This document shows, piece by piece, positions 25,129-56,451 of a stretch of 64,000 nucleotides of DNA (position 1 is its first letter; every line of letters starts with the position of its first letter). Made by a program: the position numbers and the translations under genes. The notes beneath the pieces are model-generated. The model was not told the DNA's origin and did no database searches. It saw nothing but the letters and a program-made list of their open reading frames with translations. This DNA comes from Alphaproteobacteria bacterium (GTDB taxonomy: Bacteria > Pseudomonadota > Alphaproteobacteria > Ferrovibrionales > Ferrovibrionaceae), in contig JAFKFH010000004.1 in NCBI GenBank assembly GCA_017307375.1, positions 124,001-188,000 of the forward strand. Direction: 5' to 3'.

Positions 25129-26061
25129 ATGCGGATCGTGGTGGTGGGGGCCGGGGGCGTCGGCGGCTATTTCGGCGGCTTGCTGGCCCGCGCCGGTCAC
25201 GACGTCACCTTCATCGCGCGCGGTGCCCATCTGGCGGCGATGCGCGCCGGGGGCTTGCGCCTGACCGGCCCGCGCGGCGATTTCGAGGTCGCCGGTATCG
25301 GCGCGACCGACGATGGCGCGGGCCTCGCTGGGGTCGAGGTCATGCTGTTCTGCGTCAAATGCTACGACACCGCCGCGGCGGCCCGCGCGATCGCCCCGAC
25401 GGTCGGGCCGGAAACCATGTTGCTGACCCTGCAGAACGGCGTCGACAGCGCCGAGCGTCTCGGGGCGCTGCTGCCGCCGGCCGGCATCGTGCCGGGGGCG
25501 GCCTTCGTCTCGGCGACGATCGCGGCGCCCGGCGTCATTCGCTACACCTCGGCAATGTCGTCGCTGGTTTTCGGCGAGGTCGATGGTCGCCCGTCGGCCC
25601 GCTGCGATACTTTCCGCGGGATCTGTCTCGAGGCCGGGTTCGAGGCGACGATCGCGCCGGACATCGGCGTGGCGCTATGGTCGAAGTTCGTCGCGCTCGC
25701 GACCAACGCGGCGCTGACCGGCGTGACGCGCCAGCCGGCCGGGATCGTCTATCGCGACGCCCGGCTGCGCGCGCTGGCCGTCCGCTCGATCGACGAGGTC
25801 ATCGCGGTCGCCGCGGCCCGCGGCGTCCGGCTCGATCCCGGCCAGGCCGGCCGGTCGCTGGCCCTGCTGGAGAGCTTCCCGCCCGACATGTACGCCTCGC
25901 TGTTCCACGACCTCGATCGTGGCCGTCCGCTCGAAATCGGTTATCTCTCGGGTCTGGTCAGCCGGCTGGGTGCCACCACGGGTGTCGCCACGCCGTTTCA
26001 CGATTTTGCCTATGCCTGCCTCGGACCCTACGAACATGGCCGGCCGGAGCAGCCGTCATGA
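25129..26061 (+). CDS. Ketopantoate reductase (ApbA/PanE) family protein
   Basis: NAD(P)H-dependent 2-dehydropantoate 2-reductase fold (310 aa). Seen: the Rossmann motif VVVGAGGVGGYFGGLLARAG at residue 4, FCVKCYDTAAAA near residue 75, and the catalytic-lysine segment WSKFVALATNAALTG near residue 183. A GGGAGGGG ribosome-binding site precedes the ATG. Its setting with an aldolase and a P450 under an IclR regulator suggests a catabolic 2-oxo- or hydroxy-acid substrate rather than pantothenate synthesis; that is inference. Confidence 0.85.
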   Translation: MRIVVVGAGGVGGYFGGLLARAGHDVTFIARGAHLAAMRAGGLRLTGPRGDFEVAGIGATDDGAGLAGVEVMLFCVKCYDTAAAARAIAPTVGPETMLLTLQNGVDSAERLGALLPPAGIVPGAAFVSATIAAPGVIRYTSAMSSLVFGEVDGRPSARCDTFRGICLEAGFEATIAPDIGVALWSKFVALATNAALTGVTRQPAGIVYRDARLRALAVRSIDEVIAVAAARGVRLDPGQAGRSLALLESFPPDMYASLFHDLDRGRPLEIGYLSGLVSRLGATTGVATPFHDFAYACLGPYEHGRPEQPS

Positions 26062-45071: not shown

Positions 45072-46550
45072 TCAGCTCGCCCCGCCGGCGACGATCGCGC
45101 AATGGATGTTGTGGCGCTTCAGCGTGTCGCAGGCCTGCTTGGCCTGGACCGGGGTCAGTCCGGCCAGGCGGGCGCGATAGACCTTGCCGCCCGAATCCTT
45201 GACCACCGCCGGGTCGCTGTCGCCGAGCAGCTTGGGCACCGCGGCCTGGGCGGCGTCGATCTGGCGTTCGGCGGCGGACCGCTGCGAGAAGGCACCGACC
45301 TGGATCACGGCGCCGCCCTTGGCGGCGCGCGGCGCGGCCGCCGGCTTGTGCGGCACGTCCGGCGTCTTGGCCTGGGCGACCAGCTTCGGCTTGGACTTGT
45401 CGGCCAGGGCCTTGGCCTTGGCGGTTTCATGCGGCGTCGGCGCCTTGGCGGTTTCGGCCTTGGCCGGCACCGGCTGGGCCTGCGGCTTGACCGCGGCCTT
45501 GGCGGCAGGCTTGGTGCGCAGCATCGGCGCCTCGTCGGCGACCGCCTCGACCGCTTCGGCGGCCGGCTGGGCATTGGCCGAGGCCACGGTGAACTGGCGG
45601 CCCAGTTCGCCGGCCGAGGCGGCCGAGATCAGCGTCGGGCCCTGCGGCTGGCGACGGGCGGCCATCATCACCTCGCCCGAGAAGCCGCGATCGAGCATCG
45701 CCATCATCTCGCGATCGCGCGAGGCGGCGGTCTCGCCGCCGAACACCACGCCGACCAGGCGGCGGCCGCCGCGTTCGGCCGAGGAGGCGAGGTTGAAGCC
45801 CGAGGCGCGGATGAAGCCGGTCTTCAGCCCGTCGGCGCCGTCGTAGTACTGGGTCACGCGGTTGTGGCCGGGAATGACGCGGCCCTGGAACTCGAATTCG
45901 GTATAGCCGAAATAGTGATAGAACTGGCGGTGGTCGCGATACAGCGCCTGGGCCAGCGTCGCGAAGTCGCGCGCGGTGGTGATCTGGGCCGGATCGGGCA
46001 GGCCCGAGGCGTTGTGGAAATTGGTCCGGTTCATGCCCAGCGCACGGGCGCGGTTGGTCATCATCCGGGCGAAGGTTTCTTCCGAGCCGTTGCCGATCGC
46101 CTCGGCCAACACCACGGCCGCGTCGTTGGCCGACTTGATCGCGGCGGCGAGGATCGCGTCCTCGACCGAGATGGTCGAGCCCGGCTGCAGGTCGAGCTTG
46201 GTCGGCTCCTGCGCCGCGGCGTGATAGGAAACCGGCAGGCGCTGGTCGAGGCGCAGGCGCCCGGCCTTCAGCGCGTCGAACGCCATGTACAGCGTCATCA
46301 TCTTGGTCAGCGACGCCGGATGCCGCGGCTCGTCGGCGCGGTCGGCATAGAGCACCTCGCCGGTGCGGGCGTCGATCAGGATGGCGGACTTGCGGGCCTC
46401 GACCTGGGCGCGATAGGCGGCGACCGCGGCAGCGGTCGGCTTCTTCTTGCTGGCGGTCTTTTTCTTGGCGGCGGCATCGGCCGTCATCGGATTGATCGCA
46501 AGCGCGATAACGAGCGCCATCCCCAGCGAGCGCACCAAGCCCAACCGCAT
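45072..46550 (-). CDS. D-alanyl-D-alanine carboxypeptidase with SPOR domain
   Basis: Periplasmic low-molecular-weight penicillin-binding protein (492 aa). Order of parts: signal peptide (residues 1-27, ending TADA), a Lys-rich segment, and the serine peptidase domain with SLTK (catalytic Ser), SAND and KTG motifs. A long Ala/Pro/Lys linker (about residues 315-410) and a C-terminal SPOR domain (from AVIQVGAFSQRSAAERQ on) that binds denuded peptidoglycan at the septum follow. It trims pentapeptide side chains. The start follows GAGGGGG. Confidence 0.93.
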   Translation of the reverse strand: MRLGLVRSLGMALVIALAINPMTADAAAKKKTASKKKPTAAAVAAYRAQVEARKSAILIDARTGEVLYADRADEPRHPASLTKMMTLYMAFDALKAGRLRLDQRLPVSYHAAAQEPTKLDLQPGSTISVEDAILAAAIKSANDAAVVLAEAIGNGSEETFARMMTNRARALGMNRTNFHNASGLPDPAQITTARDFATLAQALYRDHRQFYHYFGYTEFEFQGRVIPGHNRVTQYYDGADGLKTGFIRASGFNLASSAERGGRRLVGVVFGGETAASRDREMMAMLDRGFSGEVMMAARRQPQGPTLISAASAGELGRQFTVASANAQPAAEAVEAVADEAPMLRTKPAAKAAVKPQAQPVPAKAETAKAPTPHETAKAKALADKSKPKLVAQAKTPDVPHKPAAAPRAAKGGAVIQVGAFSQRSAAERQIDAAQAAVPKLLGDSDPAVVKDSGGKVYRARLAGLTPVQAKQACDTLKRHNIHCAIVAGGAS

Positions 46551-53407: not shown

Positions 53408-53746
53408 ATGGCAAAAACGCGTGCAAGCCATTCCGGATCACCACATCGTTCTGCTGCTGTCGCGGTGCGGGGCTCGGCGTCCGATGCCAAGGGCAGCATA
53501 AATTTGCGCATCGAGACCGGCACCCGCCAACTCATCGACGATGCGGCCGCGGTTCTCGGCAAGACGCGCACGGAATTCATGATCGAGAGCGCCCGGCGTC
53601 AGGCCGTCGACGTGCTGCTGGATCAGCGTTTGTTCATGCTCGATGGCGACCGCTACGATGCATTCATGCGGGCACTCGACAATCCGCCAGCGCCGGGACC
53701 GAAGCTCAGGGCGTTGTTGCGTCGGGTTCCGGCGTGGCAGAAGTAG
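53408..53746 (+). CDS. DUF1778 (TacA-like) antitoxin
   Basis: A 112-aa ribbon-helix-helix antitoxin. The DNA-binding core SINLRIETGTRQLIDDAAAVL (read from residue about 31) and KTRTEFMIESARRQAVDVLL are typical of DUF1778 proteins; the C-terminal half wraps the toxin. The first 25-30 residues are unusual for the family, so a start nearer 53465 is possible. It overlaps the toxin gene by 13 bp. Confidence 0.85.
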   Translation: MAKTRASHSGSPHRSAAVAVRGSASDAKGSINLRIETGTRQLIDDAAAVLGKTRTEFMIESARRQAVDVLLDQRLFMLDGDRYDAFMRALDNPPAPGPKLRALLRRVPAWQK

Positions 53747-54264
53747 ACGACACGCAAGGCCATCGCCGATCCAGCCTGTCAGCACCCGTTCCTCTGACGA
53801 CGGACCATGATTTGTCGGCGTTCGATTGTGGCGAACCGGCGCTGAACGACTGGTTGCGGCAGCGGGCCATCAAGAACGAAAGCCGCTTCTCGCGCACCTA
53901 TGTCGTGTGCGAAGGCCGCCGGGTCGTCGGCTATTTCTGCATTTCGGCCGGTGCGGTCGACCGCGCGGCGGCACCGGGCAAGTTGCGCCGCAATGCGGCC
54001 GACACGATCCCGGTGTCGGTGATCGGACGGTTGGCCGTCAGCCGTTCCCATGCGGGAATCGGTCTCGGCGCCGACCTGCTTGCGGACGCGCTGCGCCGCA
54101 TCGCACTGGCGTCAATGAGCATCGGCATCGGCGCGGTTGTGGTTCAGGCCAAGGATGAAGCCGCCAGGCGCTTCTATCTGCGCTGCGCGGAATTCATCGA
54201 ATTTCCCGAAGATAGTCGGACGCTGTTCCTGCCGATCGACACGCTGGTTGCGGCGTTTAGGTAG
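53734..54264 (+). CDS. GNAT toxin, TacT-like
   Basis: A 176-aa acetyltransferase of the TacT class, which blocks translation by acetylating the amino acid on charged tRNA. Seen: the start motif LTTDHDLSAFDCGEPALNDWL near residue 21 in two parts, the acetyl-CoA loop AVSRSHAGIGLGADLLADAL near residue 101, and the catalytic-Tyr segment ARRFYLRCAEF near residue 143. It starts with GTG inside the antitoxin gene. Confidence 0.87.
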   Translation: MAEVDDTQGHRRSSLSAPVPLTTDHDLSAFDCGEPALNDWLRQRAIKNESRFSRTYVVCEGRRVVGYFCISAGAVDRAAAPGKLRRNAADTIPVSVIGRLAVSRSHAGIGLGADLLADALRRIALASMSIGIGAVVVQAKDEAARRFYLRCAEFIEFPEDSRTLFLPIDTLVAAFR

Positions 54265-54688
54265 ATATCGGGGAAGCGCTGTAGGCGAAGCCAAGCGAAT
54301 GCAGCAGGAACGAGCCGCTTGACCAAATGCCGAGAACCATGATGGTTCGATGAAGTACGGCCCAATAGCAATAAGCAGAACCTGCGACAAGACCTGTGCC
54401 CGCCTATGTGCGGTTTCAGTGGTGCAGCGGTCCTGAATGCCCACTATGGCAGGATCAAGAAGTGGCAGATTTCTGCGGGACTTATTGGCTGATTGACTAG
54501 GACCATCACAATTTAGCTACTATTATCGCTTTTTAACAACTTAAGCAGTGAATAGATGGTGCTTTAGGTGTGTGCCGCAGGCCGGGTGAGCGACGCGATC
54601 ATGCTACGCGCGCAGCCCACCGCTGCCAACACCCGTCTTCCGCAGCAAGATGTCAGGGGCAATCGCCCGATTTGGATTAGGCAGGGAT
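54265..54688. other. Low-GC stretch without a recognisable gene
   Basis: This 424-bp region is poorer in GC than the chromosome around it. All frames are short, and none has a convincing start or family resemblance. It contains the imperfect tRNA-Gln end copy at 54484-54502 and an AT-rich patch at 54508-54560 that may carry the promoter for the next gene. Confidence 0.5.
54484..54502. repeat. Imperfect copy of the tRNA-Gln 3' end, possible att site
   Basis: ATTGGCTG and GACTAGGA, 3 bp apart, match the plus-strand bases at 56376-56394, which cover the 3' end of tRNA-Gln, at 16 of 19 positions. The only mismatches are the three central bases. It lies on the far side of the low-GC segment from the tRNA, where the second attachment site of an integrated island would be. 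Confidence 0.55.
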
Positions 54689-55621
54689 ATGAAGCCGGAA
54701 CACAATTCACACGACGCTCTTGCCCTGTTTCAGCGAGACGCAATCGACTTGTTCGCGGCGCGCTCAAAAGCGATCGCCGTTCATGGTGAAGGAAACACAA
54801 GGGAGGCTGGCGACGAAGTCGAGATTGTCGCACGCCGCCTATTGGCAACCAGATTCAAACATGGAGCGGTCGTAAGCCACGGCCATCTTGTCGACTCGAA
54901 TTTCGCAGTTAGTCCGCAGTTGGACTTCATACTTTCCGACCCAAGGTTATTCCCGATTTGGAACATTTTTCAGAGCGGTGCAGAGCAAGTGCTATACGAC
55001 TCAACTCATGCAATTGGAGAGATAAAGTCCTCGATGCAGATTCAGAGTGTAAAAACAAGTTTGGAGTCGTTTGTGGAAAAGATTGAGAACGTAAAGACGA
55101 AATTGCAGCGTCGGCAAGCCGGAGTGGAGGATAAAATTGGCTTCGGCCTGGGTTCAAACGTTCTGCATATTCCCCCTAATGCTGATCCATATTTAAATCC
55201 ATTGTTTACGTTTATGTTAATTGTCTCAACAAAAGGTATCAATATGAAGCGTTTAGCCAAGCTATATAGATCTAAACCTGCGAAGTTCTTGCCGAATGTC
55301 TTGTGCATGTTAGATCGCGGGGTTGTTGTTAGCGGGCAACTGACGCGGGTCGAGCCAAGAGGGGTTGATGTGCGGGTTACAAACATAAATCCAATCCCGG
55401 AATTCGACAATTTGGGACACGAGGCTTCATTGGAGGTAAATGATTGGGGTGATTGGATATTTCTTGAGACTCAGGATAAAAGTAAGTTGGGCGGAGCTTC
55501 TTTAATGATGCTTCATGGTTTGCTAGTTAACTATTTGAGGCGAACAACGCTTGCTCGCGGCTATCCTAATTTGCTTGGACTGTACCCCGCTCATCACATT
55601 CAATCTATCGACAGCCTCTAG
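54689..55621 (+). CDS. DUF6602-like putative PD-(D/E)xK nuclease
   Basis: A 310-aa cytoplasmic protein. Nuclease-like residues appear in order: Glu43/Glu45 in GDEVEIVARRLL, Asp79 in SPQLDFILSD, and Glu111-x-Lys113 in AIGEIKSSMQ. The KHGAVVSHGHLVDSN and SPQLDFIL segments resemble DUF6602 proteins, which are of unknown function. The ATG at 54689 follows GGCAGGG; the start at 54650 is less likely. GC content and codon use differ strongly from the flanks, indicating transfer. A role in nucleic-acid defence is inference. Confidence 0.6.
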   Translation: MKPEHNSHDALALFQRDAIDLFAARSKAIAVHGEGNTREAGDEVEIVARRLLATRFKHGAVVSHGHLVDSNFAVSPQLDFILSDPRLFPIWNIFQSGAEQVLYDSTHAIGEIKSSMQIQSVKTSLESFVEKIENVKTKLQRRQAGVEDKIGFGLGSNVLHIPPNADPYLNPLFTFMLIVSTKGINMKRLAKLYRSKPAKFLPNVLCMLDRGVVVSGQLTRVEPRGVDVRVTNINPIPEFDNLGHEASLEVNDWGDWIFLETQDKSKLGGASLMMLHGLLVNYLRRTTLARGYPNLLGLYPAHHIQSIDSL

Positions 55622-55796: not shown

Positions 55797-56135
55797 TGAT
55801 CGTGACCCTGGCCCGGGAATCTCCTCCGAGGCAAAACGCGAGTTTTTCCGGCACAATCGGCAAGCCGACCGACAACGCCTACGGAAGCCTTCAACAGGCG
55901 CTTCCGCGACGAATGCCCAAACACTCATTGGTTCTTGAGCCTGAAGGACGCCACGGGCAAGATCGAGAGGCGGCGACGGGACTTCAACGAGACCCGTCCT
56001 CACACATCTCTGGGGTTCCGGACGCCGGCCGAATTTGCTTCATCGGCTGAGTTACCCCCGGCCGATGAAGCCGCCGGACTCACGTCTCGGCTGGCGGCGA
56101 AACTGGTCAGGGTCACCATGGCCATGCCTTGCTGA
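55797..56135 (+). pseudogene. IS3-family transposase (OrfB) C-terminal remnant, frameshifted
   Basis: The DDE-domain tail can be read in two frames: GKPTDNAY ends in one frame near 55882, and EAFNRRFRDECPNTHWFLSL followed by RDFNETRPHTSLGFRTPAEF continues in another from 55884. Normally these join as DNAYIEAFN, so about two bases are lost at the junction. The N-terminal part, OrfA and the inverted repeats are absent. It is a dead fragment. Confidence 0.85.
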
Positions 56136-56293
56136 GCATCCGCCAGCACGGTCGGCATGCGTTTCCTGGCTTCGTCCCGGTTCCTTGCCTCCAGCGATTT
56201 GACGATCTTGCATTTCCCCATCACGGACCAGATGTCTTTCGGGGCTGGGACAACGGCGTAATACGTCTGGTGGCGTCGTTCTAGGTAGTTCAC
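56000..56293 (-). pseudogene. Truncated tyrosine-recombinase integrase, N-terminal fragment
   Basis: The first about 55 residues (YLERRHQTYYAVVPAPKDIW, then GKCKIVKSLEARNRDEARKR) match the N-terminal DUF6538-type domain of phage and island integrases. After about position 56130 the frame runs antisense into the IS3 remnant and loses integrase character; the SAM-like and catalytic domains are missing. It begins 85 bp from the tRNA-Gln 3' end and points away from it, the usual orientation for a tRNA-integrated island. Confidence 0.75.
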
Positions 56294-56377: not shown

Positions 56378-56451
56378 TGGCTGGGGGACTAGGATTCGAA
56401 CCTAGACTGGCGGAGTCAGAGTCCGCTGTCCTACCGTTAGACGATCCCCCA
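56378..56451 (-). tRNA. tRNA-Gln (anticodon CUG)
   Basis: A 74-nt cloverleaf reads on the minus strand from 56451 to 56378 with an encoded CCA. The 7-bp acceptor stem (TGGGGGA/TCCCCCA), the anticodon arm GCGGA-CTCTGAC-TCCGC with anticodon CTG, and a TTCGAAT T-loop are all present. The 3' end is the presumed attachment site of the neighbouring island and remains intact. Confidence 0.95.

Follow-up and report, generated by a model that had tools for sequence, protein, structure and literature searches.

A candidate orphan nuclease of the NucC fold in a low-GC region beside a tRNA-Gln gene of an alphaproteobacterium

What is the function of a lone gene of atypical composition that sits close to a tRNA gene? 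This question is raised by an open reading frame at 54689 to 55621 (plus strand) of the window, by which we mean the whole 64,000-nucleotide stretch of alphaproteobacterial DNA analysed here. A sequence-only reading had taken the gene product for a PD-(D/E)xK-type nuclease, an orphan and the sole intact cargo of a low-GC island, and had suggested a role in defence.

The gene and its surroundings

The frame starts with an ATG at 54689, terminates at 55621 and encodes an uninterrupted protein of 310 amino acids; an alternative in-frame ATG upstream, at 54650, would add 13 residues. The GC content of the gene is 46.9% and its GC3 is 0.50, as against a GC3 of 0.90-0.93 in three nearby chromosomal genes named by eye (clpA, ppx and SRAP). 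The window outside the island, sampled as 1182 overlapping stretches of the same 933-base length, has a mean GC content of 68.4% (sd 2.9, minimum 61.2%), which places the gene 7.5 sd below the mean. The earlier claims that GC content and codon use are sharply unlike those of the chromosome, and that an intact low-GC gene lies near a tRNA, were thus borne out, the tRNA being tRNA-Gln(CTG) at 56378-56451 on the minus strand.

This tRNA gene forms the right border of the island. Between it and the nuclease gene lie a transposase remnant (rve_3; 55938-56027, plus strand; PF13683, E=5.6e-7) and, by the 3' end of the tRNA, an integrase remnant that retains the DUF6538 N-terminal domain (56129-56293, minus strand; PF20172, E=1.9e-8). 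An integrase beside the 3' end of a tRNA gene is the usual layout of elements that enter tRNA genes. To the left, genes for a TacA-like antitoxin (53408-53746; PF08681, E=2.2e-24) and a TacT-like GNAT toxin (53734-54264; PF00583, E=1.1e-6), both on the plus strand, abut the island, and their membership in it is uncertain. This TacA1-GNAT pair (53408-54264) is intact, and its GC3 of 0.72-0.75 is between that of the island and that of the chromosome. From 54265 to tRNA-Gln, no second intact gene is evident besides the nuclease gene. Because the pair abuts the island, the description of the gene as sole intact cargo is conditional: it stands only for an island boundary near 54265, and the intact pair at its edge counts against it.

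No second attachment site was found in the window when the 11-base words of the tRNA region were compared with it; only one such word recurs, at 25751 on the opposite strand. ARAGORN also called a tRNA-Ala(CGC) at 46120-46215, which at 96 bases is unusually long and possibly a false positive. Among 17 further genomes of the order, 2 (G655 and G667) have tRNA-Gln next to ppx; in 12, the two genes lie on separate contigs or at a great distance from each other, and in 3, just one of the pair was listed. Around the two adjacent sites, the matches to the 12 window genes tested were ppx and rlmE only; two right-hand window genes were unmatched, as were the left-hand ones. Since the adjacency occurs in just 2 of 17 genomes, the site is not callable as conserved and an empty form of it is not readable.

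Family, predicted fold and catalytic core

The window protein matches the Pfam family DUF6602 (PF20247) over residues 36-129 with E=8e-12 and 45.4 bits (curated cut-off, 27). PADLOC returned a PD_DExK model at 1.2e-10, a NucC-type effector at 1.3e-5 and NucC at 0.007. A relative at locus L034 has E values of 1.8e-31 against DUF6602 and of 1.1e-102 to 1.4e-40 against five solved NucC sequences. Given that L034, a canonical member, matches both solved NucC and DUF6602, sequence comparison shows that DUF6602 is the family containing NucC, and the earlier description of the protein as resembling nothing but a family of unknown function no longer holds. NucC is a DNase that cA3 activates in CBASS and type III CRISPR systems and that brings about cell suicide on virus infection; the canonical enzyme cleaves double-stranded DNA in a cA3-dependent manner as trimers assemble into hexamers. 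Low-scoring hits to models of ribosomal S17 and of DNA 3'-phosphatase (E 0.05-0.13, under their cut-offs) and PDB sequence matches of the single window protein (E 0.5 and 0.65) were rejected. In a literature search, the term 'DUF6602' was not found in any paper, and, judged by titles and abstract openings, none of the papers listed was about orphan NucC-type proteins; the 'standalone nucC' described in the part of PMC11229360 consulted adjoins a nucC-cas10 fusion.

DUF6602 is sparsely distributed, being present in 5 of 289 genomes of the class and 19 of 398 of the phylum (E<=0.001; own genome counted in both). Canonical NucC-type proteins numbered 7 among 21 loci fetched with flanks. Six more came from a genome-contig scan, in which 106 pattern matches yielded 7 confirmed proteins, the seventh being L050, the same protein as L044. 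Neighbours typical of CBASS or type III CRISPR were confirmed with Pfam at 10 of the 13 canonical loci and comprised cyclase-type proteins (SMODS/NTP_transf_2), bacterial HORMA proteins, AAA ATPases and a RAMP protein (L028). The cyclase neighbour at L052 scored above the cut-off for NTP_transf_2 and just below it for SMODS, and that at L053 gave no SMODS score. By eye, L031 has a short cyclase-like ORF that has no Pfam hit and L055 has no visible cyclase; L032 is close to a contig edge.

The sequence-only reading had proposed a structure comparison against PD-(D/E)xK folds. An AlphaFold model of moderate confidence (pLDDT 71, pTM 0.72) was built from an alignment of 24 proteins, here called A5; residues 220-253 and 289-310 have pLDDT values below 50. 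All 14 Foldseek matches at E<=0.001 were NucC chains (6.5e-9 to 2.6e-6), and the next match was at 0.47. With VIA-align, NucC entries gave Z scores of 17.8-19.5, the top one with an rmsd of 3.0 over 213 residues, compared with 9.8 for the best non-NucC chain, among restriction enzymes. A control model from 12 orphan relatives only, without canonical NucC (pLDDT 63.8, pTM 0.68), behaved in the same way: all 14 matches at E<=0.001 were NucC (2.2e-9 to 1.2e-6), followed by one at 0.13. With NucC crystal structures ranking first by far for both models, the window protein is very probably a nuclease of the NucC fold.

Five residues (G41, E45, D79, E111 and K113) are invariant across all 24 proteins of A5, that is, the window protein and 23 relatives that are 14-24% identical to it. 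The codon for Glu45 is at 54821-54823. That for Asp79, which aligns with the active-site Asp of NucC, is at 54923-54925, and those for the ExK motif Glu111-Ile112-Lys113, which aligns with E104-x-K106 of E. coli NucC in the printed chain numbering, are at 55019-55027 (all plus strand). The alignment leaves out L038, L041, L046 and L048. L041 and L046 keep the equivalents of E45, D79, E111 and K113; L048 has lost four of the five core residues and kept one; and L038, an unaligned 150-aa ORF near a contig end, has by eye a Ser at the Glu of ExK. The five core residues are kept in 12 of the 13 other aligned orphans, the exception being L048. Among the residues named in the sequence-only reading, Glu45, Asp79, Glu111 and Lys113 hold as invariant in A5 and Glu43 does not. 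Predicted fold and conserved residues together lend good support to the PD-(D/E)xK nuclease assignment, from which nuclease activity would follow by homology.

Putative switch residues, cyclases and orphan relatives

Canonical NucC is switched by cA3, and its R53, Y81 and T226 (E. coli numbering) are putative residues of the cA3 pocket; no paper stating this assignment was found in the literature searched. By count, they correspond to R52, Y80 and T224 of L034. The Arg, Tyr and Thr are present in 13, 13 and 12 of the 13 canonical members, respectively (L028 has Ser for Thr), and in 3, 2 and 1 of the 13 other orphans, never two in one protein. In the window protein, these putative pocket residues are absent and the positions are occupied by G59, L87 and L288, of which the first and third are aligned with uncertainty at 14-24% identity. 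A 27-row alignment has 52 columns that do not vary among the 13 canonical members. Of these, the window protein retains 5 of the 5 core columns and 13 of the remaining 47; each of the 13 other orphans retains 11 to 20 of the 47. Since the core columns were partly chosen for their invariance, the 5 of 5 retention is partly circular, and, the alignment being shallow as well, the contrast between core and pocket is suggestive rather than proof. A tree of the 27 rows splits the 14 orphans, window protein included, from the 13 canonical members with an SH-aLRT of 84; its end branches are long, support is weak for 13 of its 24 inner branches, and it does not resolve where the window protein belongs. 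From sequence, it is suggestive that the orphan DUF6602 branch has retained the catalytic core and changed the canonical switch residues, and we consider it likely, with appreciable doubt, that the window protein gives no cA3 response.

The presence of a cyclase was assessed in the locus and in the genome. Between 50500 and 60000, no CD-NTase or type III CRISPR gene was recognised among ORFs read by eye, six of them scanned with Pfam. A search of the whole own genome with the SMODS profile gave one match, on contig 31, beside a SAVED protein. There, a CBASS-like locus (L059:8885-11713) consists of a gene for a CD-NTase-like protein, an ORF without Pfam hit and then the gene for the SAVED protein; read by eye, it is a CBASS of its own, whose effector is a Cap5-like HNH-SAVED protein. 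According to the part of PMC10419184 consulted, NucC is signalled by cAAA and Cap5 by 3'2'-cGAMP, so cA3 would not obviously come from this CBASS. The orphan status claimed earlier agrees with what was found in the neighbourhood, the sole SMODS match lying on another contig. Because the SMODS model overlooks some cyclases (L052, L053), the genome-wide absence of further cyclases is weaker than the local one. The Cas10-type palm profile PF22335 gave two matches in the genome (contigs 3 and 16), one at 27.6 bits (cut-off, 27) and one at 21.9 bits; these weak matches were rejected as Cas10 and taken for GGDEF-type domains, E. coli also scoring with this profile.

The neighbourhoods of the orphan set were examined at 14 loci (L030 and L036-L048) with 104 neighbours, of which 21 were scanned singly with Pfam; the first 20 of these scans gave 11 proteins with a match and 9 without. 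On this coverage, defence genes were seen at 4 of the 14 loci: L045, L047, L048 and, weakly, L041. At L045 (7830-12988), the orphan DUF6602 gene immediately precedes genes for HamA and a helicase, which make up a Hachiman locus. At L047 (2888-8544), it shares an overlap with the end of an HsdM-HsdS fusion gene that forms part of a type I restriction-modification operon. At L048 (6788-9731), the DUF6602 protein is long, has lost four of its five core residues and is encoded next to a DpnII/MboI-type restriction endonuclease. The neighbour at L041 matches Mrr_cat at 9.8e-5, a weak Mrr-type endonuclease match, and PADLOC gave nothing for this neighbour. Elsewhere, the adjoining genes encode a terminase (L037), a cytosine methylase (L040), an exonuclease (L036), a UvrD-type helicase (L042), a DUF2252 protein (L043) and a DUF2971 protein (L044); the scanned neighbours at L030, L038 and L039 gave no Pfam match.

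At L044 and L046, some PADLOC candidate models were matched in part. PADLOC counted 157 families among the 104 orphan neighbours versus 51 among 112 control proteins from 14 stretches of the same contigs, 24 to 100 kb away, several models being able to match one protein. Among the matches listed, the control stretches had mad3, RTasHel, GajB and MzaA, with GajB and RTasHel strong and of helicase type. Among the 21 singly scanned orphan neighbours and the PADLOC matches listed, there was no cyclase, and the only CRISPR-related match was to a generic DEDDh exonuclease model. A few of the orphan loci thus have a clear defence setting; at the remaining ones it is lacking or uncertain.

Relatives of the window protein were also sought on mobile elements and in other genomes. 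A plasmid tblastn search at E<=10 returned nine records, the best at 2e-6; a run at 1e-5 had returned none. The furthest-reaching BLAST alignment, covering window residues 9-286 in two pieces, was to a gene of the Agrobacterium plasmid pAtAF1_95, which is split over two frames and has NxREAG and AIGEIKxS in common with the window protein. The plasmid records annotate such relatives merely as 'DUF6602 domain-containing protein'. On a Caballeronia plasmid (L097:7186-8675), a DUF6602 gene, probably encoding NucC, directly follows a nucleotidyltransferase gene, an order also seen in NucC operons. No match to the window protein was found in phages by tblastn at 0.01 or in PHROGs, and viral contigs held no confirmed relative of it (two scans) or of the Agrobacterium piece (one scan). 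Two Klebsiella phage records carry relatives of the orphans at L037 and L040. Klebsiella phage ST13-OXA48phi12.3 (L099:5989-7068) encodes a relative of orphan DUF6602 proteins, the hypothetical protein QBP27491.1. A search with the window protein found nothing in the order's 17 other genomes, and in 398 genomes of the phylum (own included) it gave two weak partial matches besides the protein itself. The Agrobacterium piece was not found in 385 genomes of the class, a search that had no positive control and shows little.

Proposed role, alternatives and known systems

The ORF, the PF20247 match, PADLOC and the predicted models all enter into the assignment of the gene at 54689-55621 as an orphan DUF6602 / NucC-fold nuclease gene. 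On balance, we favour the view that it encodes an orphan NucC-fold DNase that is set off by a trigger other than cA3 and probably acts against phages or plasmids. Judging from composition and the integrase remnant, the gene would have arrived with an integrative element, now decayed, at tRNA-Gln. Its product, by homology and predicted fold, would be a DNA endonuclease that requires metal and has the fold and active site of NucC, from a DUF6602/NucC branch that appears to have kept the catalytic core and to lack both a neighbouring cyclase and the residues fixed in cA3-responding NucC. At rest, the enzyme may be kept inactive, possibly in trimeric form. When a phage or plasmid invades, it may be activated by another ligand, by a protein of the invader or by DNA that is foreign or damaged, and the active nuclease would then cut DNA without much sequence preference and destroy the invader, the host chromosome or both. 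A defence role, which the sequence-only reading had put forward as inference, becomes more plausible in the light of the family and of some orphan neighbourhoods; for the window gene itself, we put a role in defence or against rivals at slightly better than an even chance.

The predicted fold and the catalytic core would also suit an ordinary NucC that responds in trans to cA3 from a cyclase elsewhere in the genome; a CD-NTase-like gene does lie on another contig, and SMODS can overlook any further cyclases. We regard this reading as improbable. That cyclase has its own SAVED protein, Cap5-like by eye, and the Cap5 signal given in the consulted part of PMC10419184 is 3'2'-cGAMP; moreover, the window protein differs at three positions that are fixed or nearly so in canonical NucC, and it falls outside the canonical group in the weakly supported, long-branched tree (SH-aLRT 84).

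An element-serving nuclease, used for restriction of rivals or for processing of the element rather than for host defence, has a small but real chance of being the answer. The window gene adjoins an integrase remnant, and relatives lie by a terminase (L037) and a cytosine methylase (L040) and in the two Klebsiella phage records, but other orphans stand beside host-type defence systems (L045, L047). As elements carry defence genes against rivals, this reading and the defence reading overlap. Finally, the gene may be a decaying relic with no current function, like the integrase and transposase fragments next to it and the split relative on pAtAF1_95; selection on it is not measurable because no close relative was found, which we counted in favour of a relic. 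Against this stand the intact frame of 310 codons and the retained core residues, and we consider a relic quite unlikely.

As a wider and more speculative proposal, which we hold only tentatively, orphan DUF6602 proteins could be self-sensing suicide or restriction nucleases of the NucC fold that use no cyclic-nucleotide signal, and cA3-switched NucC could have evolved from or alongside them. This analysis supplies proteins annotated as 'DUF6602 domain-containing' with an active site, a predicted fold and mutants open to testing. Should the orphans prove functional, there would be a stand-alone form of a nuclease that is known as the output of a cyclic-nucleotide alarm, and comparison of orphan with canonical members would reveal how the switch was gained or lost.

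Among known systems, NucC (6p7o/6p7p, 6q1h, 6uxf/6uxg and 7zgv/7zgw) is the closest counterpart. It has in common with the window protein the Pfam family, the predicted fold over most of the chain, and the Asp...Glu-x-Lys core with the invariant Glu. The two differ in that the window protein is only 13-17% identical to the solved NucC chains, is longer (310 versus about 240 aa) with stretches of low model confidence, has no recognised cyclase or CRISPR neighbour and carries replacements at the three canonical positions. The restriction enzymes NgoMIV, PspGI, BbvCI and SgrAI have the superfamily core in common with it (VIA Z of about 9-10), but they match far more weakly than NucC does, and no methyltransferase was recognised in the window island. 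The other orphan DUF6602 proteins, a group in which we count QBP27491.1 and the split gene of pAtAF1_95, resemble the window protein in that no cyclase was seen alongside them, by eye or among scanned neighbours, and in that the core is kept in 12 of 13 aligned members while the canonical positions are mostly lost; yet, at 14-24% identity, they are about as distant from it as NucC is, and their neighbourhoods vary.
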